This document shows positions 7,189-64,000 of a stretch of DNA of 64,000 bases, one piece after another. The stretch comes from Cylicocyclus nassatus (lineage: Eukaryota > Nematoda > Chromadorea > Rhabditida > Strongylidae): positions 17,219,433 to 17,283,432 of the forward strand of contig CATQJL010000001.1 in NCBI GenBank assembly GCA_958299035.1, given 5' to 3'. A program made the position numbers and the translations under genes. The notes beneath the pieces are model-generated. The model did no database searches and was not told the origin of the DNA. It saw only the letters and a list, made by a program, of their open reading frames with translations. The first letter of the stretch is position 1, and the number at the start of each line of letters is the position of its first letter.

Positions 7189-7903
7189 GCTCCAAACCCC
7201 AATTTTGTCTCTAAACCCCACCCAAATTAGCCGAATAGGACCTCCCCCCCGGGTAGGAGTTCAGCGCGACCCAAGTTTGCAAACACCCGATTAATAGTTT
7301 ACTCATGTTCGAAGAAAAAATTAGCATAATCAAGAATTTGGGCGGAAGTTTTTGGTAGACACAGTTTGAATTAGAACTCGACAAGTAGTTATACGACGTG
7401 ATAAACGAAATCACCATATTTTACAGAGAATCACAGTTAGAGAATATAACAAGAGCAACTTGAACAATATTTCGACTACGAGAGCGTCCTACGGCATGAC
7501 CGATACTTAGTAAACAAGAAATACTATACAGATACCACGACGGTGGGAAGAAAAATGAATGCAGCTGTGATGAGGTAAAGACAAGGGAAGAGTTGAAAGA
7601 TTTCTGTTCTCTATCAGAAACTATCCTAATGAGCAGGTTCCACGGTACTGCTTACTGCTTGTTCAGTACTGCTCACTGCTTGTTCATTGTCCAGTTTCAT
7701 TTTCTTTATCTCCTGTCCATTTTCAGTCTTGCTGCTAGCTGAAACATTTATCATTATCTTGACTCCAAACAATCAACTCAATCAAATATTATGAACCGAT
7801 CCCTGTATCCAAATCACTCGGGATATCATCCAGAAAAAAAAATTCTCATTCTGATACTTCCAAAGTTGTTGGGCCAGCAAAAGCACGATGCTCTTGCACT
7901 CCA
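7189..7903. other. No gene seen
   Basis: AT-rich, with no splice-bounded frame. This is the 3' flank of the MYG1 relic on the minus strand. Confidence 0.4.
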
Positions 7904-9404
7904 TTACTTAAATGCAACGTTAACACAAATCTCCGCATCTCCAATTTCGAGCGCCTTCTTTGCCATAGCTAGAGCTCCTTCGAATGCCTTGTTACCTCCG
8001 ATAAACCCTAAATACCACAAAATGAAGAAATTGGCAAAAAATATGAGAAATTTCAAATGTACCTGTCACGTGCACAAATATGCATCCGTCAATGCCGCAG
8101 AGATTAGAAAGCTCCTCAACCAGCATTGTAAAATCGCCTAATCTAGCGTGATCTTAAAGCTGCACTATAAATGATGATAGCATGGCCTGCGTTACCGTGC
8201 TGACTCAAGACATTCCGCGACGCGACTCTCACCGCACAAACGCAGTTGCGCGAGAAACATGCAATCAAAGGTGAAACACAGCATGGGTGATGTCAAACAG
8301 CCAACACCTTGACTGCGGTTCACCCAGACTAACCTCCAACAAGATCTATAGCTTGTTGGAACCTCTCGTTGGGCTTGGGGTCAGTTTCGTTCCAGTAGGG
8401 ACTCACATGATTGGCACGGCCAGAAAGTCCACCAGGGGCGATATGCATCAATCTCCCGTTTTGAAAGCGGGCGATCATTTCCAATAAAAAATGAATGCCC
8501 GGCCGGGTTGGCCGCAGCTTCGTACATTACGGGTCGGGCGGCCAACCCGGCCGGGCAATCACTTTACTATTGAAAATGATCGCCCGCTTTCAAAACGGGG
8601 ATTGATGCATACCGCCTCAGATGTTTGATATTTTCAAAGTCATATGTTGAAGCAGCAAAACCACACAGCCAAATCAATATAGATAGGAAGAAATCAGCAT
8701 ACAATATGTTGATGATTAAAGCATGATTCTCATCCAAAACGTTATTCGAAAAAAAAAATAAAACTTCAAGCAAGATATAAATGGATACTGACAAGGCTCT
8801 TACCTGGGTGTGCCATCAAACTGTGGTATGCCGTTATCGATAGCATCTATGGCTTCGACAAACGTTTCGTAAAGCTTTCAAAAAAATATATACACCATCT
8901 TATCGTCGTGAAAGGAATCAAGTATCTGACGATAATAAACTGAATAAGAAAGATTAACCCTGACTGACAATGCTTACCTCTGCAATCAGTTGTTTTCCAT
9001 AATGAGCCTAGATCAATCCAGCTGAACTGAGTCTAGAGTTAGAATCCAGGCCCAAATGTCTGCATCGTCTCATTGAACTCTCTGAAAACAGCACGATTAT
9101 GGAATTACTAACATTAATTGTGTGATCTTCATGACTGTAGGAGACTCAAACTTAACAGCATGCAAAGCAAGACCTACAATTGATGATGGTCGTATCGTTT
9201 CTTCGAATGATCGTATACACACGTCAACGATAACATCGCACTTGGCAAGTACAGCAGGATCCCATGTCCTGAAATGTCATGATAATGAAATGATGACATT
9301 ACGGGAGATATCCTCAAGATGAATTGTGTGCAATAAAACGTTCAAGTGCGCAAAGATTCTTTGAGTTGGTATAAAGATGTGACGAGAACCTCTATCAAAA
9401 CAGC
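7904..9404 (-). pseudogene. MYG1: MYG1 (UPF0160) exonuclease pseudogene
   Basis: MYG1 is a DHH-type 3'-5' RNA exonuclease of nucleus and mitochondria, normally about 340-380 residues. Exon remnants on the minus strand, 5' to 3': about 9404-9346 (DEVL-like start); 9268-9174 (WDPAVLAKCDVIVDV, then after a frameshift VYDHSKKRYDHHQ, the DHH motif); 9081-8978 (EFNETMQTFGPGF, then in another frame LSSAGLI, a TAG stop, AHYGKQLIAE); 8874-8804 (LYETFVEAIDAIDNGIPQFD); 8437-8334 (GLSGRANHVSPYWNE); 8152-8063 (CGIDGCIFVHVTG); and 8007-7904 (FIGGNKAFEGALAMAKKALE to TAA). About 110 residues between the last 'DLVG' and 'HARLGDF' are missing. Frameshifts, in-frame stops and the deletion make it a pseudogene, although most splice sites survive. 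A MITE covers one intron-exon junction. Confidence 0.87.
8437..8616. mobile_element. Palindromic MITE inside the MYG1 relic
   Basis: Both arms (GGCGATATGCATCAATC at left, inverted as GATTGATGCATACCGCC at right) match through a CCCGTTTTGAAAGCGGGCGA core and a second inner stem CCCGGCCGGGTTGGCCGC. It is therefore a 180-bp foldback. It occupies the 3' end of an intron and the first bases of the following MYG1 exon on the minus strand. No clear target duplication. Confidence 0.85.
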
Positions 9405-26581: not shown

Positions 26582-29500
26582 CCAGCCGAACGCTTGCGTC
26601 AACTACAATGTCCATACGAGGATTTTGATCTTGCCACCATGGACAGCGAAGGATACATGTACGTTCATCCACATTATGCGAATTATCCGGAGCACTTGAA
26701 AGATGTGAACTGCAAGGTAAATACTCTCAAGGATAACTACTTTACGAAAATCATTAGCTGATTTTGATTTTAAGGTTGTATTTTTGGAAGGAGCATTGAG
26801 AGATAATATAACGAACAAAGGTAAAAACGTATTCAGAGAAGTCGCTGAAGTAGAGGTTAAATTGTTTTGCTTGATTTTGACATAGCAGCTGGTCCGACGT
26901 GTTTCTCAACAGGTGTTTGAAAATAAGCGATTCTTTGCAAATGGAGATGCCTTTTACATTCGTTGCTTCAAGAATGGTACAAAGATATTTGAAGATGTCT
27001 ATCCTGGCATGAGGGACCTAGATAGAGCACCTAACACGGTATATGAACAAATAATTTACTTAAATTTTGGCCTCATTGATGTATTCAAGGTTTACTACGC
27101 AAGAGATACCCAGTCATTTGATGACTATGGCAGAAAGCTTGCATCAGAGCCATTGAAAACACGAGATTCGCATTATTCTATCGACATTCTTGGTTTTGAT
27201 TCGACATCTCGAACAATGTTTATGCGACATTTACCTCGAACTCTGGAAACTATGAACAAACTAGGCTATGAGCTGTTTTATGGTTACAACAAGGTGTGTG
27301 TCAAAAAAGTGCTAATTACTCTTCTGCTATATTAGGCGAAAGGGTGGTTTGTGCGATACAATTTGATTCTCAAATGTACAAAAGAGACCAATTGCAAGAT
27401 TCATTGAGACTATGTAAGCAAGCATAGGCCCACGGGCAAAATGATGAGACAGTGAAGAAATTATGGATTTTGGCAACGAACACAGATCTCACATGCACCG
27501 ACTTCAAACATAGCTAACACAGTAAAGTATGAATTTCTGCGACGCCTTTCCTTCTAAGCTTTAAGTTTTTCAGTTTCAAGTCTTGTTTGCTTTCCTTCAT
27601 AATACTTTACAACATGGATATAACTGATAAAAAGTTTGTGGCTTTTTGAACACATGCGCGCACAACTTGGGAAATAGGCAGTCATATCAAACAAATAAAG
27701 GCAGTTTATTTTTTATTTTAACGAATAGATTTCCATACTGATTCCATTTACAGCCAGTTGCTCTCGATAGTTTTTAGTCTATGCTCTTGAAAACTTTAGG
27801 AGAAAAGCAATTCCTTTGCAGTGCAGCACATTTCTGCTTTTCTCAACATATTTTCCAAAGTCTTGACATTTTCGAAGATTCTTTATACTTTGTATGTGTA
27901 ACTAAAGTAACACGTCACACGTTATCCTAAATAAAAGACAGCGCAAATTTGCTTTTGTGTTCTCAGAAGCATCAAAAACCTTTGCTCACAGTGTACGCTT
28001 TCGTAAGGTTCTTTTGAGTAAAGGAAATCATAGCGATTTATACACATGTGCAAGCTTGCATTTCTTGCGCAAATCTATATAGCATGCAAAACTCTGACTT
28101 TCTCACTTGTACTGACAGCTTCTCATTACATCACTTTCAGTTTAGATTGGAGATAACTCAGAAGTAAACCTTGTGTCATTGCTTGCTGGTGACCTTCCTG
28201 AAGCTCTTGAAGAACCAAAACTGGATGAATTTGGAGACATAAATATTAACTGGATTTTGCCTTTAAAACGTAAATTAGATCCAACCAATATACCCTTTCT
28301 TTGGAAGATGATGGCGAAGGGTGAGTGACAGTTTCCTATTTTTCGAAAATAATTTTATTTCAAAAGCATTGACTCGCTACCCTTTCCATTATTTTTTTGA
28401 ATAGTGTCTGCTCTTCTACTTGTACTACATTAGGTCTCTACACGAAGGAGTGTCAATCCTGCCACATGATAAAATACATTTACATTTTTCATTCTGTTCT
28501 ACTAAAAGTTGTATTGCCTACTTACTGACGTATTTTCACCTGTTTCTGACTAGAAGTGACATTTTTAATTTTGAGCGTGAAAATGAACACTGTGTTATGA
28601 AAATGTCATGGTATTTCTCGCGAACATATCAGGTCTGCGCAAAGAGAGAAGTGCGTTAGCGTGTCATCATCTAAGCAGAGCGAAATAAGAGGCGACTAGG
28701 TACTTTAAGCCATCATTCATACTCCTTGCTAGTCGAATTTCATGACGAAAAAGATTATAAACTCAAATAAACTTTGAATTTTTGCTAAGAGGCAAGTTGT
28801 TTTAGTGAATGTTTTGGACTTTTGCTTTTATGAATAGCGAACAGCTTTTGTGTCATCCTAAGCGCTCACAATCACACCAGAAATGATTTCGAAAAAAATG
28901 ACATGTCAGCTGAACCAAAATGCTGTAATTCTTTCTTGAACGCGTGGCAGGGAGAGCCTTTATAAAATATGTGGAAAACTTTCCTTGGACTAAGCACGCA
29001 TTTCAAGAAGCATCCTTTGGAAAAATGTGTTTGGATAAGGAAAAAGTATCAACTTTGCTCAAGTCCGCGGCGATTACATGTTTCACTACACCCGCGGTGT
29101 AGTTTCACGTATGCTTCAAACCCGTAATTTTAGAGTTTGGATGCCGTTCAATGCTCAATGAAGACATCTCAGTGGACTGGCTCGGATTGTTTCATTACCC
29201 CTCTGCTCAATTTCTTCCTGGATTTACATCACCTCCTGCTGATCACTTCTATCGTACTTATTATTTGGCTGTATACAAAGTATGTATACATACACGCTGT
29301 CTTTATCTGGATCAGGTCAAGGGACATTATGCGCTTTTGCAATGCCGTAATGTGTCAAGTCTACGCTTTGCTAAGGAAGAGTTGTAAATGTCTGCTTCCA
29401 ACCCTTCCTTCTCTCCAGCGCTTTACGGGAACACATATAGCGAATGTCTTGACCGTTTGCGAGTGCACAGTTCAGACCAACTTTTTGAACTGATCCCGAT

Positions 29501-44212: not shown

Positions 44213-44429
44213 GATGCGATATTTAGGCAACCTGACATCTATAGACTTGGTTTCAAACTTTGCTTGGATGACATTTCATTCAGATGTTCGGTAGTCATCT
44301 TGTGGAACCTATTTTGCTGTAATTCTTTGATTAATTTTTTTTGTGTTTATGCTATCGCGATGGCATAGAAAGCGACATTACTTTTAAGGCCATATAATCT
44401 AACCAGGAACATTACAGGGCTTTCCACGC

Positions 44430-44726
44430 ATGCCAAAGATGAACCAACCTCAACTTGAAGCTCCAGGAGCTCCGCGAAATGGGCGACGATGCGTTTTCTG
44501 CAACGGCGCGCACTGGGACAGCGACTGCAAACAAGCGAAAACATTGACGGAACGTAGAAACAGAATAATTCATCTTAAAAAATGTGAAAGATGTTTGGGT
44601 CCCGCCAATCATCTTGTTACCGCATGTAATTCTAGTGCAAATTGCCATTACTGTAAAATGGCAGGGCGCTTCGAAGATATGACACGCCACCACCAGGTTT
44701 TCTGCCCTTACACATTCAAGATGTAA
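44430..44726 (+). pseudogene. BEL/Pao-type gag zinc-knuckle fragment
   Basis: BEL/Pao LTR retrotransposons encode a gag nucleocapsid with CCHC knuckles upstream of protease. This 98-codon frame has CVFCNGAHWDSDC (C-X2-C-X3-H-X4-C), then KCERCLGPANHLVTAC, then CHYCKMAGRFED ending HHQVFC, the three-knuckle layout of that gag. The frame extends upstream to an ACATTACAG at 44412-44420. It stops right before the TA where a MITE is inserted, with no protease or reverse transcriptase nearby, so it is a fragment. The copy at 53017-53319 differs at many positions but keeps every Cys and His. Confidence 0.7.
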
Positions 44727-44730
44727 AATA

Positions 44731-45499
44731 TTAGGTTGGTGCAAAAGTAATGTTTTTCTAAAAAAAACAAAACTGTTAAAAAAGGCAAACTGTAGAAAAA
44801 AAGCAAACTTTAAAAAAAGCAAACTGTAAAAAAAACTTTGCAAAAAAAGAAGCTCTTTTCATGCTCTATCCAATGATGGTTAAAAGGGCTTTTATCCTAT
44901 GCCTTTTTATGTCTCAACCTGGGTAATCGTTTTGCTCATTTCGTGGCCCATAAATCTCCCATAAAATAAAAAAAGTAAAAATGGCCACAATAAAATAAAA
45001 AATGGCCGCTTTACCCACTTCTGTAAGCTTAAGGATAGGTTTCTTGTGACAGCTTTAGCAAGAATTTTTAGGTTCAATACGCAGAAAATCAAAAAAAAAA
45101 CTCGATTATTTGAGACCTTAAGGTCCCTGAAATAATACTGAAAAAAGGTGACAAATTTGCTTTTTAGTTTTTCTTTTTTGCAAATTTTTGTCGTTCAAGC
45201 CCTTTCTATGTTTGTTTGCACTACCAGCTACAAGATATGCTATCTATTATCTGCAATAACAAATTTTATAGGTAGTTATATTTCTCAAAAATGAGGTTTC
45301 AGAAATTTTTTTTCGTTTTTTCGATCCAGATATTTCTTCCCGTTTATGATATTTATGAGTAAGTAAATGTGGGCTCTATTGCGAAAGGCTTGTTGCCTTT
45401 GATGGTCTTTATCGCATCCAAAAAATTTAGATTTTGTAAAAAGTTATAGCAATCAAAGTGGGAACTCGTTAAACGAATGTTACTTTCGCACCAACCTAA
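44731..45499. mobile_element. Mariner-type MITE, Hsmar1-like ends (copy A)
   Basis: Starts TTAGGTTGGTGCAAAAGTAA and ends with its near-perfect inverse, TA on both sides (44729-44730 and 45500-45501). The terminal 20 bases are those of cecropia-type mariners such as human Hsmar1/MADE1. 769 bp with AT-rich filler and no transposase. Confidence 0.85.
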
Positions 45500-46064
45500 T
45501 AAATTACGGCGTCCGTTGTCGAGTCTCTCTGCCAATTCTTTAATTTTCTGGCATACCTTGAAAAGATGTATCTGCATTACCTTGAAACCATCCACAGAAA
45601 ATTATGATTATAACGAGAGTTACCATATAAATGTAGAAGCTCCACTTGATTCATTCTTACTGTTTGTGTTGAAAATTCAACGAGAAATTGTAAAGATTTA
45701 AAGACAAAAAACTACTTTCTATTGCAACCTTTAATTTTTTTATCATTGCTGAAGGAATTGATTTGCATGATTCACAACAGATAGGGAATATTTTAGTTAA
45801 AAATGTAACTTTTTTGCTTGTGCTGCCACCATCTTATGGCACTCAAAGAAGGTGAGTATCAAAACCCCCTTTATGGCTGTTATTGAGAGCCGTGACGAGT
45901 GTTTCCGCCCTATCTTTATTAGAAGCAAAAATTAGCAGGTCAAACAGTATGCGTTTAATGATGCCTACCATAATAAAGCACGCGGAGGAGATCTCGTTTG
46001 AAGGTTGGACTTTGAACGGAAGTGGCAATCATCGAAGAGGCTCTGGGGCCCGTAGTAAAGCTTG

Positions 46065-46215
46065 ATCAGTTCAGGTGAACTGAACTTAAGTTCAGTTGAG
46101 CTCAGATGAGGTGAACTGATGACCACCCACCTTCCCATGCTATACATGGCGAGTGAACTGATAGTTGACCATCCGTCCACCTGCTGCAGTCAACAGTTGA
46201 ACATCAGTTCAAGAA
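46065..46215. repeat. Cluster of GAACTGA palindromes
   Basis: CTGAACTTAAGTTCAG (perfect 16-bp palindrome at about 46077-46093) sits among repeated GTTCA/TGAAC half-sites in direct and inverted orientation (GTGAACTGATG, ACATCAGTTCAAGAACTGATG). It could be decayed foldback sequence or clustered binding half-sites. Confidence 0.5.
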
Positions 46216-46559
46216 CTGATGTTAGAGGAGTGCAAATAGTGTGTAAAAGAGGAGACGCAGACAAGACTCCCGCAAGTTGTTCCTGAGTAACTTACGATAT
46301 ACATCACTTTGCCTAATATTGCAGACAAGATCGGCGCAAAACTGCACAACCGCGCCCAAAAAGAAGAGGATCGATGAACTGCTGATTTTGGCGAGGAATA
46401 CCAAAAAATAACAGTTTCTTCTCTTTTTTCTAAACTTTACTGATTTTTTTGAGCTGTCCAAAACGAGAACGCATTTGTTTATTTCATTGGTTACTGACTT
46501 TTTTGGCCTTGGGATCAACTTTTCCAATGGATGCACGCTTCTTCGGCGGCATCCTCTGA

Positions 46560-47575
46560 TAAATAAGAGAGTTTTTGGGCTATAGGCTGCTCAGTACCCG
46601 AGATATGTAGAGCCTTTAGTCTCAGTACTCGAGGTAAAGCCTATTGGATTCTCGGCATTTGAGAAGGGAGCCTTTAAGCCATGTCGCTCGGTCCTAAGAT
46701 CCTTGGTTTTTTATCTGGTCCGCAGCTCCTTGATCCTCGGTCCTCGCTTGGTACTCAGAACTCTCGGTGGTCCAGTGGCTGCCTGCTAACAGAGAAGGGT
46801 GACGTGACCGACAATGCTGAGATCGGCCGCCTATATACCTCTCGAAAAAAGGCGGGGCCTGCTGTAACTGGTCGCACCAACTCGGATAGGCTTTGTATGG
46901 AAAGCCTATGCTCAACCACACGAATGACCCGCCCCTTGCCCAGTCCCTGCTCGGATAATCGTCGAGGCTAGGCGGCCATGCGATATATGGGCAAGCAGGC
47001 TCCGGAAAAATAGTTGGCTGATTTTTTGCGGTCCGCTTGCAGTTATTTGGAAGAATGTTGGTCAAATTTCAGACGAATGCTCAAAGAACAGTCGCGATCT
47101 TTTCATGGTTTAGTTGCGGCGCAGTGGCCGCACTTTCGCAGAGAGTCCACGAGAATATGCAAATTTGTTGAGGGCCGCACGGCCCTTCGCCAAGGACTGC
47201 ACAGCCCACGAGTAGTTTCCGCTGAAAGAAAGTACCTCAAACTCGGGTAATTAAACCGCCGATAACATCTCTGCCATGTAGAATCCTACCATTGCTCGAC
47301 GTACGCCCGAAAGTGCGTAAAAGGTGTCCGAGCGCTCGCTGAAAATTTGGGCAGCGCTCGCCAAAAGAAATTATTTGACGACCTCGCAGAAAATTCTGTA
47401 TTGCTTCCCGCTGGCAGAACCTGCGACAATAAAGAAAGTACCGCTCGCTGGAGGTTTGGTCACCCCAAAATTCTGCTGACCGCCTGCAAGAAAGCGCGAG
47501 TTTGCAGACCGCTGCCCTCGGCGATTGTCTGCTGAAGGGGTATATAAGGCGAGGATATATAAGGCGCCGCGGCAC
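46560..47575. other. GC-rich block with tandem TATA motifs
   Basis: About 1 kb of base composition unlike its AT-rich flanks, with open frames on both strands and none with a known domain. Hairpins: ATAGGCTTT/AAAGCCTAT at about 46894-46917 and AGGGCC/GGCCCT at 47172-47187. GGGTATATAAGG (47537-47548) and GGATATATAAGG (47552-47563) are two TATA-box-like motifs just before the repeat at 47576-48120, consistent with an LTR or promoter. Contains the SL1-like sequence. Confidence 0.4.
47150..47257 (-). ncRNA. SL1-like spliced-leader sequence (SL RNA gene or relic)
   Basis: On the minus strand, 47257-47236 matches the 22-nt nematode SL1 at 21 positions; only base 14 differs (A to G). It is followed at once by GT, the SL splice donor. 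GUUU of the leader can pair with AAAC at about 20 nt downstream so that the donor lies in a loop, as in SL RNA stem-loop I. Further down, AGGGCC/GGCCCT forms a hairpin next to CAAATTTGC, a weak Sm-site candidate. If the gene is real, its RNA donates the leader to mRNAs by trans-splicing. Alternatively this is the 5' end of a retro-copied trans-spliced RNA, or a relic. The leader match itself cannot be chance. Confidence 0.5.
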
Positions 47576-48120
47576 CCCTTATTTCTGATGTTTGTTTCAT
47601 GTGGGATTGCCTCAGCGCCGAGGACATCGCTGTATGGCTGCCTCGAGAACAACCAAGAAGGACAATCGAAGACAACCACGGTTGCCTCTGTCGAGGAGGA
47701 CAATCATCGGTTACCTTGTCGAGGACGACAATCATCGGTTGTCTCTGTCGAGGAGAACAATCATCGGTTGCCTATGTCAAGGAGGGCAATCATCAGTTGC
47801 TGGTAGCGTACGGATATATCAATACTCGGTGAAACAGGAATTTTCAGAGAATAAACAAAAATACCTGTAGTTACAGAGACATCCTGGGATCTTGGGTCAA
47901 AAATACATATATGCTAATTTTTGATGGCCAATCCACCAGTGCTACTCAAATATTTTTTGCTTTCCTCATTTCGCGCCGCCATCATGGTTCACTCCCAATA
48001 TTCAAAGAACCCTCGAAAAAGCCTTTTTTTTTGAAAATATGTATGGTTTGTTTACCCTCATATAGAATGTGTGCATGCAAAACAACAATCTAGCTCTATC
48101 AGAATCTGAGATGAAAAGGG
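47576..48120 (+). repeat. Minisatellite-bearing interspersed repeat, copy 1
   Basis: Four 28-29-bp units (CAATCATCGGTTGCCTCTGT type) at 47670-47800, then sequence matching the reverse complement of 62870-63170 (GATATATC, TTTTGATGGCCAATCCA, TGTGCATGCAAA in both). The frames here (93, 92 and 77 codons) come from the tandem units. Confidence 0.7.
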
Positions 48121-48170
48121 TTTTTTGAAAATAAAACATTTTCCCAAAATATTTGGCCATTCCGAAACTA

Positions 48171-49312
48171 TTAGGCTGTAAAGAAAGTTCCCGGGCACTT
48201 TTGAAAATTTCATTTTCAAAGGCATCTTTTCGGCGCTCGGTCGGACTTTGACACCAAATTTTTTATACATTTCTGTAGAGGGAAGCCTGAAGTTTTCAAT
48301 ACGCCTTCAGACTTTTATCAATGCCAAGAACTGTTTGATCTGCACATAGAGAAATCTTTTCAACAACAAAAAATCCACAATTTTTCTTTTCACGGCCACT
48401 TTTTTGCAGTTCAAAAAAATTCGTCCAAATCATGGGCGATCTGATTGGCAAGCCTGTGAACTTCTGAGCTGCAACTGCATTCGAGTTTTGCAGTTTGCGC
48501 TCAGAAATTACAAGCTGTCGAACCCCAGTGGATAACTAATCCATTGGGGTTTCCCGCGTGAGTTCGAGTCTCATCCAGATCGCCAGTTGTTGTGTTTGCC
48601 ATGGCGTGTGTAGGAAGACGATTGGAGACCGAGTTCTTTACTTGACGACAAGGAACTAAGAATAATCTGTACTTACTAAGGAATGCCCATATATAGTGCA
48701 CACAACTATATCACATATCATAAACAACAGATCAACATATTCCTTCATTCTTCTCGAGCATTGGTTTCTTGCGCGGCTGCACAACACTCTGACTGATACT
48801 CTTTTCGCAGCTGGCATCGCTTGCGCGGAAATCGCCACGCCAGGATGATGTCCAAAAATGTGCAAGGCATTACCCCATCAATGTTGCCAGTAATCAAAGA
48901 TTTGGTCCTTTCTGTGCAGAACCAGAAGACTTCAAATTCATTTACTGAAAAAATGGTCGATTTTTTGAATCTTCTGGGAAAAATTTTTTTGCAGCTGGTC
49001 CTTTAAAAACATGAATGGTACCCATAACAGCCCCAGCAGACCTCTATATAACTACAGTATCTGGGCTTTCCAGCTCTTATCCTGCCTGAGATAATCTTGC
49101 ACAAGTAGATCACCTTTCGCGACGATCTTTTTCCCTTCTGCGTATGCTGGTGGACCGCAGCGAGGCGCTGAGAAGCCAGCAAGACACGTATATATTGTGG
49201 ACAAAATTGTCTTTGCAATGAACTCTGTAGCTTTAAAGAATCAATGTGCTTGAAGTTACAGCAATTTGAAAAAAATTTTCGAAAGTGCCCGGGAACTTTC
49301 TTTACAACCTAA
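48171..49312. mobile_element. Mariner-type element nested in another
   Basis: Ends TTAGGCTGTAAAGAAAGTTC and, inverted, TTAGGTTGTAAAGAAAGTTC are perfect for over 25 bp after the sixth base. TA duplicated at 48169-48170 and 49313-49314. The interior is not palindromic: it carries a tRNA(Ser)-like sequence (48435-48584) and, after a CTTTTCGCAG acceptor, two overlapping open frames (48811-48948 and 48821-49006). These may be captured host DNA. Confidence 0.85.
48435..48584 (+). tRNA. tRNA(Ser)-like pseudogene with expanded D-arm region
   Basis: GGCGATCTG at 48435-48443 pairs with CAGATCGCC at 48576-48584 like an acceptor stem. The 3' half is class II tRNA(Ser)-like: anticodon arm GTGGATAACTAATCCAT with anticodon position ACT (Ser(GCT) genes have GCT), long variable arm TTGGGGTTTCCCGCG, T-arm TGAGTTCGAGTCTCA. 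Between the acceptor 5' strand and the anticodon arm there are about 75 nt where about 18-20 are expected, with an inner hairpin and no normal D-arm or A-box. The base at 33 is A, not T. Hence a pseudogene or tRNA-derived SINE-like head, not a working gene. Confidence 0.55.
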
Positions 49313-53016: not shown

Positions 53017-53319
53017 TCAAATGTGAGGGCAGAGAACCTCGTGGTGGCGTTTCATTTCTTCGTATCGCCCTGCCTGTTTACAGTAATGACAATCTTTACC
53101 AAGACCACATGTGGTAGCAATATGATTGCCGGGACCCAAGCATCTTTCACATTTGTTGAGCCCATCTAATTTTTTTTTACGTTCCGACGGTGTTTTCACT
53201 TGTTGACAATCGCTGTTCCAGTGCGCACCATTGCAGAAAATGCATCGTGGCCCATTTCGCGGAGCTCCTTTAGCTTCAGGTTGAAATCGGTCCTTGTTTT
53301 TGCGTAAGCCCTGTAATGT
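53017..53319 (-). pseudogene. BEL/Pao-type gag zinc-knuckle fragment, second copy
   Basis: Open on the minus strand for about 100 codons from just after an ACAG to a stop at 53017: APRNGPRCIFCNGAHWNSDC, KCERCLGPGNHIATTC, CHYCKQAGRYEEMKRHHEVL then C. All knuckle Cys and His residues are kept relative to the copy at 44430-44726, and most differences between the copies look conservative (Lys/Arg, Asp/Asn). No protease or polymerase follows. Confidence 0.7.
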
Positions 53320-53564
53320 GTTCCTGATTACATTAGATTGTCTTAAAAATAAAGGTGCCTTTCATGCTATTGCGACAGCGTAGACACGAAAAAAGGATCC
53401 TAGGGAATTACAGCAAAATAAGTTCCACAAGATGATTGCCGAACATCTTAATAATTTGTCATCCAAGCAAAGTTTGAAACCAAATCTAGCAATGTCAGGT
53501 TGCCTAAATATCGCATCACTTGCAAAATAAAAATCCTTGGAGCCTTCCGTTAAGTCACCACGTA

Positions 53565-61847: not shown

Positions 61848-61864
61848 CCATTGGCCTTTCCTCA

Positions 61865-62510
61865 TCTTATATATAAAGCTGAATGTCTGTTTGTCTGTCT
61901 GTCTGTATGTCTGTCTGTATGTCTGTCTGTATGTATGTGTGTACGTATGTTCCGAATAGAAAATTCCATTTCTGAACCGATCGGGACCAAACTTGGCACA
62001 CATACACTTCGGGCCCCGGCGGGTGTCATAGGCTACTTTTCGTCATCGATCGATATCGATTTTATCGATTTTTTGCAAAATTTGAGCCACGGGGCTGGGA
62101 GTTGGCACAGGGGGGTAATCGAGCATGCTGATTACGAATACAATTTTAGTTTTTAGGATTATCCGCTACTTTTATCGATTTTATCGATTTTTTTGCAAAG
62201 TTTGACCTATGGGGCTGGGAGTTGGCACAGGGGGGTAATCGAGCATGCTGATTACGAATACAATTTTAGTTTTTAGGATTATCCGCTACTTTTATCGATT
62301 TTATCGATTTTTTTGCAAAGTTTGACCTACGGGGCTGGGAGTTGGCACAGGGGGGTAATCGAGCATGCTGTTTACGAATAGAATTTTAGTTTTTAGAATT
62401 ATCCGCTACTTTTATCGATTTTATCGATTTTTTTGCAAAGTTTGAGCTAAGGGGCTGGGAGTTGGCACGGGGGGGGGTAATCGAGCATGCTGATTACGGT
62501 AGTATGTTTG
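61865..62510 (+). mobile_element. Helitron-like element H4
   Basis: Starts TCTTATATATAAAGCTGAAT after a host A, passes through a TGTCTGTC-type array (61882-61944), then the block shared with H2 and H1, then tandem 120-bp units. The 3' end is not clear; the GTAAG/CTTAC hairpin of H1 and H2 is not seen before 62600. Confidence 0.6.
62095..62510. repeat. 120-bp tandem repeat within H4
   Basis: Three full units and a partial one (starts near 62095, 62215, 62335, 62455), nearly identical, each with GGGGCTGGGAGTTGGCACA and GAGCATGCTG. H1 has two diverged units, H2 one. Confidence 0.9.
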
Positions 62511-62869: not shown

Positions 62870-64000
62870 TTGAATTTTTGCATGCACACACTGTATATGT
62901 GGGTAAACATACAAAAATATTTTGAGAAAAAAAACCGTTTTTCTAGGGTTTTTTTAAAATTTATTGGGAGGAAATCATGATGGCGTTTTCGAATGATAAG
63001 CAGAAAAAATATTTGAGTAGCACCGCTGGATTGGCCATCAAAAGTTAGCATATACGTGTTTTTGACGCAAGGTCCCAGGATGTCTCTGAAACGAGATACG
63101 AATATTTTTGATTTTTCTGTAAAAATTCCGGTTTCACCGAGTGTTGATATATCCGTACGTTTTCGGCGAGTGAACCGGGGGTTCCGCCTCGACCGAGGTG
63201 GCCGAATGGCTCACCTCGACGGAGGTGTTGAGCCAGTGGTTCAATTTTTGCTACAACCTCGGTTGTCCGACAGAGGCAACCGATGGTTGGTTTCACAACC
63301 GAGTGGTTGTACCTCCGGATGGAGGCGAACAACCGAGTGGTTGTACCTCCGAATGGAGGCGAACAACCGAGTGGTTGTACCTCCGAATGGAGGCGAACAA
63401 CCGAGTGGTTGTACCTCCGAATGGCCGAATGGAGGCGAACAACCGAGTGGTTGTACCTCCGAATGGCCGAATGGAGGCGAACAACCGAGTGGTTGTACCT
63501 CCGAATGGAGGCGAACAACCGAGTGGTTGTACCTCCGAATGGAGGCGAACAACCGAGTGGTTGTACCTCCGAATGGAGGCGAACAACCGAGTGGTTGTAC
63601 CTCCGAATGGAGGCGAACAACCGAGTGGTTGTACCTCCGAATGGAGGCGAACAACCGAGTGGTTGTACCTCCGAATGGAGGCGAACAACCGAGTGGTTGT
63701 ACCTCCGAATGGAGGCGAACAACCGAGTGGTTGTACCTCCGAATGGAGGCGAACAACCGAGTGGTTGTACCTCCAAATGGAGGCGAACAACCGAGTGGTT
63801 GTACCTCCGAATGGAGGCGAACAACCGAGTGGTTGTACTCCGTGAGGCAACCGATGGTTGTCCGCCGAGTGAGGCATCCGATGGTTGTCCGCCGGCATCC
63901 GATGGTTGTCCGCCGAGTGAGGCGTCCGATGGTTGTCCTCTAAGTGAGGCATCTCGTGGATGTCCTCCGATTGAGGCATCCGATGGTTGTCCTCCAAGTG
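62870..64000 (-). repeat. Minisatellite-bearing interspersed repeat, copy 2
   Basis: Reverse-complement relative of 47576-48120; runs off the window. From its inner end: unique part 62870-63170, a short patch of GAGGTG-type motifs, the 34-bp array, then 27-bp units (GAGGCATCCGATGGTTGTCC type, 63840-64000) that are close to the 29-bp units of copy 1. Confidence 0.75.
63294..63840. repeat. 34-bp hairpin satellite, about 16 units
   Basis: Each unit is GAACAACCGAGTGGTTGT followed by ACCTCCGAATGGAGGC: two perfect mini-hairpins (ACAACC-GAGT-GGTTGT and CCTCC-GAAT-GGAGG). Units are almost identical; two carry an 8-bp extra (GCCGAATG) near 63424 and 63465. With a 34-bp period the frame rotates, leaving frames of 171-295 codons open on both strands; they are not credible proteins. 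Confidence 0.95.

Follow-up and report, generated by a model that had tools for sequence, protein, structure and literature searches.

An SL1-RNA-like unit inside a numerous terminal-inverted-repeat element of the nematode Cylicocyclus nassatus

The 64-kb stretch analysed here (the window, C1:17219433-17283432) probably contains a decayed copy of a numerous, non-autonomous element with terminal inverted repeats (TIRs), the cargo of which would be an SL1-RNA-like transcription unit from a captured SL1 RNA gene. It appears that a part of the worm's RNA-splicing machinery was picked up by a jumping DNA element and spread over the genome. Spliced leader (SL) trans-splicing arose and changed many times, and a mobile element with an SL-RNA-like unit would be a concrete route by which new SL RNA genes could arise and change place. 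The features of the window copy are listed in Table 1.

Table 1 Features of the element copy in the window (positions of the window, minus strand)
Feature	Position	Strand	Basis
Decayed copy of a TIR element of ~588 bp (MITE-like) with SL-RNA-like unit	46950..47533	-	Identity to L002 and L006
Decayed TIR at the 5' end; form in the family CTCAGACAATCGCCGGGGGCAGGCGG	47506..47533	-	Limits by eye; TIRs of L002 and four well-preserved copies
SL1-like exon, 21/22 bases	47236..47257	-	Sequence match; equals genome-scan site C1:17266659-17266689 (-)
GT at the splice-donor position, adjacent to the leader	47234..47235	-	Sequence; GT in 12/12 aligned copies
Hairpin I with the donor; two pairs broken in window copy	47210..47237	-	Predicted folds, alignment
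Hairpin II	47170..47209	-	Predicted folds, alignment
Sm-like linker; T run broken in window copy	47158..47169	-	Alignment; [AG]T4-6[AG] in 9/12 copies
Hairpin III; one broken pair in window copy	47131..47157	-	Predicted folds, alignment
Decayed TIR at the 3' end; form in the family GCCTGCMCCCGGCGATTATCTGAG	46950..46977	-	Limits by eye; TIRs of L002 and four well-preserved copies

The leader sequence GGTTTAATTACCCGAGTTTGAG at 47236-47257 of the minus strand agrees with SL1 in 21 of 22 bases, with A to G at position 14 as the sole mismatch, and runs directly into GTACTTTC, which starts with GT. This match had been reported in an initial annotation of the window and is borne out. A second SL1 site at up to three mismatches was not found in the window, and none of 100 dinucleotide-preserving shuffles of the window yielded any. 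The whole assembly (514,686,895 bases, 369 contigs) holds 3,621 SL1 sites at up to two mismatches, compared to zero for the reversed pattern. Because of this copy number a match by chance is refuted and retains a negligible probability, in agreement with the earlier claim that the similarity exceeds chance. Caution is required in that approximately 3,490 of the 3,621 SL1 matches are not located in the arrays of SL1 RNA genes. Exact SL1 was not found in viral contigs, although near records may be absent from that search.

The window element (~580 bp) is 81% identical to positions 8801-9386 of the sampled locus L002 (589 columns) and 67% identical to positions 7666-8152 of locus L006 (552 columns). 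Both copies were obtained from a first sample of contig C1 comprising sixteen stretches of 10 kb and one of 5 kb; no further copy was present in seven more 10-kb stretches (235 kb sampled in total, two copies), and a 60-bp fragment of the element end was found in L009. The ends of the L002 element match each other in inverted orientation over 26 bp at 92%, and the TIR CTCAGAYAATCGCCGGGGGCAGGCGG is present with few changes at the ends of L002 and of four near-identical copies. Equal 2-bp flanks were seen by eye in four of these five copies, in one case inside a run of C, while the ends of the window copy and of L006 are too decayed for such an assessment.

A search of the genome with L002 as query gave 3,753 first-look candidates. 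The 40 candidates that were scored yielded 59 matches, 41 of which, counting the query itself, span the full 588 bases at 95-100% identity; these full-length copies are distributed over contigs C1, C112, C223, C305, C316 and C326. The signature consisting of the SL followed by GTACTTTCT occurs at 2,884 sites of the whole assembly at up to three mismatches, compared to none for the reversed control. This number includes the genuine SL1 RNA genes (130), which are one mismatch off the signature. Some LTR-type sites may be included as well, so that roughly 2,750 signature sites would be left for the element and for comparable repeats with an SL. No Pfam match was obtained in the six frames of 45001-49000 at E values up to 0.1. 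A length of ~588 bp, TIRs, many near-identical copies and no coding match are features shared with MITEs (non-autonomous TIR DNA transposons), from which the element differs by carrying an SL-RNA-like unit; the equal 2-bp flanks in four of five copies would be candidate target-site duplications. As far as can be judged from sequence, the SL-bearing block is a high-copy TIR element. The suggestion of the initial annotation that the block is an element carrying an SL is thus confirmed by the matching TIR ends and the high copy number, and the genome-wide search that it proposed, performed with L002, found the element to be very numerous.

Two features that had been noted in or beside the block are present but lie outside the SL-bearing element (46950-47533): the two TATA-like motifs (47541-47563, plus strand) and the nearby repeat (47807-48142). 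This repeat matches 63159-62808 in inverted orientation with 79% identity, and related minisatellites adjoin both places (including 63295-64000). A 120-bp tandem satellite occupies 61861-62498; its relatives were found in L002, L004, L008 and L016 among others, and the L002 element appears embedded in a stretch of it. Several element copies form adjacent inverted or tandem pairs (C223:82855393-82856566 and similar).

For the analysis of the SL-bearing unit, twelve copies were aligned (window, L002, L006 and L047-L055). Nine of the twelve were chosen via matches to L002: L047-L055 consist of four near-identical and five more divergent copies drawn from the 59 matches. G14 of the window leader is also found in three of the eleven other aligned copies (L006, L054 and L055) and is therefore regarded as a subfamily state. 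GT follows the SL directly on the 3' side in all twelve copies. This observation bears on the second possibility raised earlier, a retro-copied trans-spliced mRNA whose leader became frozen in the genome. The nearly complete SL would fit such an origin. However, a GT instead of an exon follows the leader in 12/12 copies, which is the arrangement of an SL RNA gene. The element is moreover bounded by TIRs and lacks a Pfam match. The GT and the TIR ends are the reasons why the retro-copy is not supported, and we consider it highly improbable.

In predicted folds of the well-preserved copies the SL precedes a hairpin I that encloses the GT donor; hairpin II comes next, and an Sm-like AUUUUG separates it from hairpin III. 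The unit of L002, 127 nt from the SL, has a predicted stability of -63.6 kcal/mol (z -7.57). Its leader bases 1-20 are unpaired, hairpin I extends over the donor and is followed by hairpin II, and a single-stranded linker with AAAAUUUUGCAU precedes hairpin III. The donor had originally been placed in a loop; in the best-preserved copies it is instead predicted to be paired within hairpin I. When the whole L002 element was scanned, the signal was located at the unit (z -9.9), compared to -3.4 to +1.3 in segments clear of it (60 shuffles each). The same scan gave a peak of -3.4 for L006, and for the window copy a peak of -2.5 next to the SL and a value of -2.7 in another segment. Unit stability ranges from -57.9 to -72.0 kcal/mol in eight of ten copies (L002, L047-L053) and is lower in L054 (-53.5 kcal/mol) and L055 (-46.9 kcal/mol). 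Three hairpins are recognisable in each of L047-L055, with a wholly unpaired leader in L048, L050, L051 and L052 and extra pairing in the rest.

Folds of the window unit (z -2.16) and of L006 (z -1.81) are weakly better than those of shuffles. The three hairpins of the window copy are weak. Rfam recognised no family at gathering score in the window; laxer settings applied to 46500-47700 gave one irrelevant match of 12.5 bits only. The Sm motif [AG]T4-6[AG], as used for nematodes (PMC7986045), is present between stems II and III in nine of the twelve copies and fails in L047, L054 and the window. The Sm-like site of the window copy reads AAATTTG, with three T only.

Across the 12-copy alignment, 94.2% of the cells are paired, compared to 35.7-54.2% with the partners slid. 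Covariation was not in excess over shuffles, neither with twelve copies (reached by 212 of 500; a double change at a single pair) nor with three (280 of 500; one double change in hairpin I, in L006). This result says nothing for or against selection on the fold. The SL (mean identity 0.889) is not clearly better conserved than the rest of the unit (0.807-0.905) and not better than stem III (0.905).

Perfect SL1 sites of the genome include arrays at 680-bp spacing, from one of which the reference locus L027 was drawn. It reads SL1, GTATTTTCTAGATCTGACTC...AAAATTTTGGATATCTCTTCC...GGGAGAG; besides an Sm-type site it has a hairpin on the 3' side. A 46-nt pattern of this genuine SL1 RNA gene detected 130 sites, a count that does not cover SL RNA genes with other introns. 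The 100 sites listed are all located in C1 arrays (30.14-30.17 Mb and 31.61-31.63 Mb) or on contig C37, mostly at a spacing of 680 bp. The survey of SL RNA genes recommended by the initial annotation thus places the listed genes in arrays away from the window.

These locations bear on the reading of the window locus as a functional host gene for a variant SL RNA, to which the 21/22 leader, the GT donor and the three weak hairpins would correspond. Against it stand the Sm run of three T, two broken pairs in stem I, the position of the locus within a copy of a repeat whose ends are decayed, and the arrays elsewhere that hold the listed genuine-pattern sites (100 of 130). We assign this reading a very small probability. 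What survives of the original proposal of a variant SL RNA gene is the apparent descent of the unit from such a gene; in the window copy the Sm run and two stem I pairs are broken.

The element unit and the genuine gene have the SL and the subsequent GTA-TTTCT in common. At the Sm/stem III junction, AAAATTTTGGATA-TCTC of L002 agrees with AAAATTTTGCATATTCTC of the genuine gene in 16 of 18 positions, and only 1 of 2000 block shuffles was as good. The stretch that L002 and L027 share downstream of the SL, AAAATTTTG-ATA-TCTC (16/18), was found within edit distance 2 at 1 of 229,586 sampled positions. Downstream likeness to the genuine gene was short of significance for the window copy (reached by 332 of 2000 shuffles) and for L006 (233 of 2000). 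Upstream of the SL, where the initial annotation had advised looking for a proximal sequence element (PSE), the comparison of L002 and the window copy with the genuine gene gave no significant similarity (reached by 676 and 1100 of 2000 shuffles).

Compared to a nematode SL1 RNA gene, the unit features the 22-nt SL exon with one base different, GTA-TTTCT after it and hairpins. L002 additionally shares an AATTTTG Sm-type site with its 16/18 neighbourhood. The unit differs in being dispersed within a TIR element, whereas the genes form tandem arrays, in having another, GC-rich stem II and a donor hairpin formed without use of the SL, and in that no common promoter was found. A covariance model built from the twelve copies assigned 28.1 and 27.0 bits to the genuine SL1 RNA (L027). 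However, the repeat cluster L028, in which no SL-RNA anatomy was seen, reached up to 31.9 bits and thereby exceeded the genuine gene. The model score therefore mostly reflects the SL and the donor, and the interpretation as capture is weakened because L028 scores as high as the genuine gene. With moderate confidence we read the unit as a captured piece of an SL1 RNA gene. L028 (C1:31164950-31166700) is a compound repeat of palindromic structure, in which ten SL1-like sites (up to three mismatches) are spread over both strands; several are ~82 bp apart, and each is followed by GTAC.

SL1 is also found in other repeats. Among 100 sites listed, 27 were dispersed perfect SL1 loci, 18 of which (L029-L046) were fetched. 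GT follows directly in 12 of the 18, TTGAGGT in three and neither in three; a TAAA-type motif ends at SL1 or one base before it in ten. In L014, SL1 (6083, plus strand) lies within an LTR pair with 98% identity across 731 columns, and the open frames beside this pair are presumably BEL/Pao-like. The pattern NNTAAARGGTTTAATTACCCAAGTTTGAGGT, which combines a poly(A) signal with SL1, occurs at 292 sites at up to two mismatches, compared to none for the reversed control (five of the 100 listed sites are from L028). Among these 100 listed sites, 19 same-orientation and no opposite-orientation pairs are 5-15 kb apart, a range that was picked post hoc. LTR pairs would be arranged in this way. We infer that SL1 may occupy the R position of many LTR repeats in this genome, which could be the larger discovery. 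The Ascaris element Tas is said to hold, possibly, an SL in its LTR. The accessible parts of PMC554778 do not state this for Tas.

These repeats provide the basis for a different explanation, in which mobile elements encode SL1 and a GT donor as their first exon and no SL RNA gene is involved. Cis-spliced element transcripts would then resemble trans-spliced host mRNAs, and the hairpins would be ordinary palindromes of the element. Such mimicry gains from the occurrence of SL1 in unrelated repeats (LTR-type repeats after the TAAA-type poly(A) signal, the LTR pair of one element, L028), from the number and orientation of the NNTAAARGGTTTAATTACCCAAGTTTGAGGT sites and from the GT or TTGAGGT after most dispersed perfect copies. 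However, the unit model gives lower scores to the 18 dispersed loci (11.7-20.3 bits), an own mRNA would be of no use to a TIR element that lacks a coding match, and the strong fold of L002 is confined to the neighbourhood of the SL. Mimicry is accordingly treated as possible, though rather unlikely.

Under the preferred reading of capture, an ancestor of the element would have taken up, at the DNA level, part of an SL1 RNA gene. A GC-rich hairpin would have taken the place of stem II, and the element may have been spread to thousands of places by a transposase supplied in trans. The unit is most likely passive cargo. The window copy, with two broken pairs in stem I, one in hairpin III and decayed TIRs, is probably dead, because its Sm run and stem I pairs are broken. 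In principle, transcripts of well-preserved copies might exist, associate with Sm proteins and supply a variant leader for trans-splicing. The leader of young copies carries the change C12T (GGTTTAATTACTCAAGTTTGAG); this change is diagnostic of them and therefore testable in RNA-seq. That the family captured an SL1 RNA gene and that some of its thousands of units are complete, expressed and donate the C12T leader to pre-mRNAs of the host or of elements seems unlikely to us. If true, the element would selfishly provide donors for trans-splicing, and this in a genome whose LTR retrotransposons also carry SL1 at the start and end of their RNA.

The (mostly open-access) literature on SLs and mobile elements yielded, in the text available, neither a DNA transposon with an SL RNA unit nor SL1 in an LTR R region. 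In flatworms, 597 candidate loci were excluded because of an association with mobile elements, mainly LTR and LINE (PMC12582326). Leaders inside repeats are common to both cases, but the flatworm leaders are partial and are explained by trans-spliced retrotransposon transcripts, whereas here a TIR element, a donor, hairpins and an Sm-like site are present. The dispersal of SL RNAs led to the suggestion that they may have kept an ability to transpose (PMC4233971); no element is described in the available text of that source. Dinoflagellate retrogenes are tagged with relict leaders (PMC12014239) and are similar in being genome-encoded spliced-leader remnants. They differ as retro-copied mRNAs, whereas here a GT donor follows the leader. 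Cer1 was considered as a precedent and rejected, as its SL1 is added by trans-splicing (PMC3315495). For Tm1 an SL1 acceptor has been predicted (PMC3169594).

Among the sampled loci L001-L026, Rfam detected only 5S rRNA, with 43 matches that all lie in L011 at a distance of ~232 bp from each other; SL1 was not found in the 5S spacers of L011 at up to six mismatches. Within the window, a short open stretch beginning with MPPKKRASIGKVDPKAKK was recognised by eye on the minus strand from 46548 down to ~46480, and it recalls, in our assumption, the N-terminal regions of Helitron-type proteins. The segments 44403-44723 (plus strand), 53020-53361 (minus strand) and 26886-27332 (plus strand) are taken by us to be zinc-knuckle gag-like fragments and a putative DUF229-like exon.
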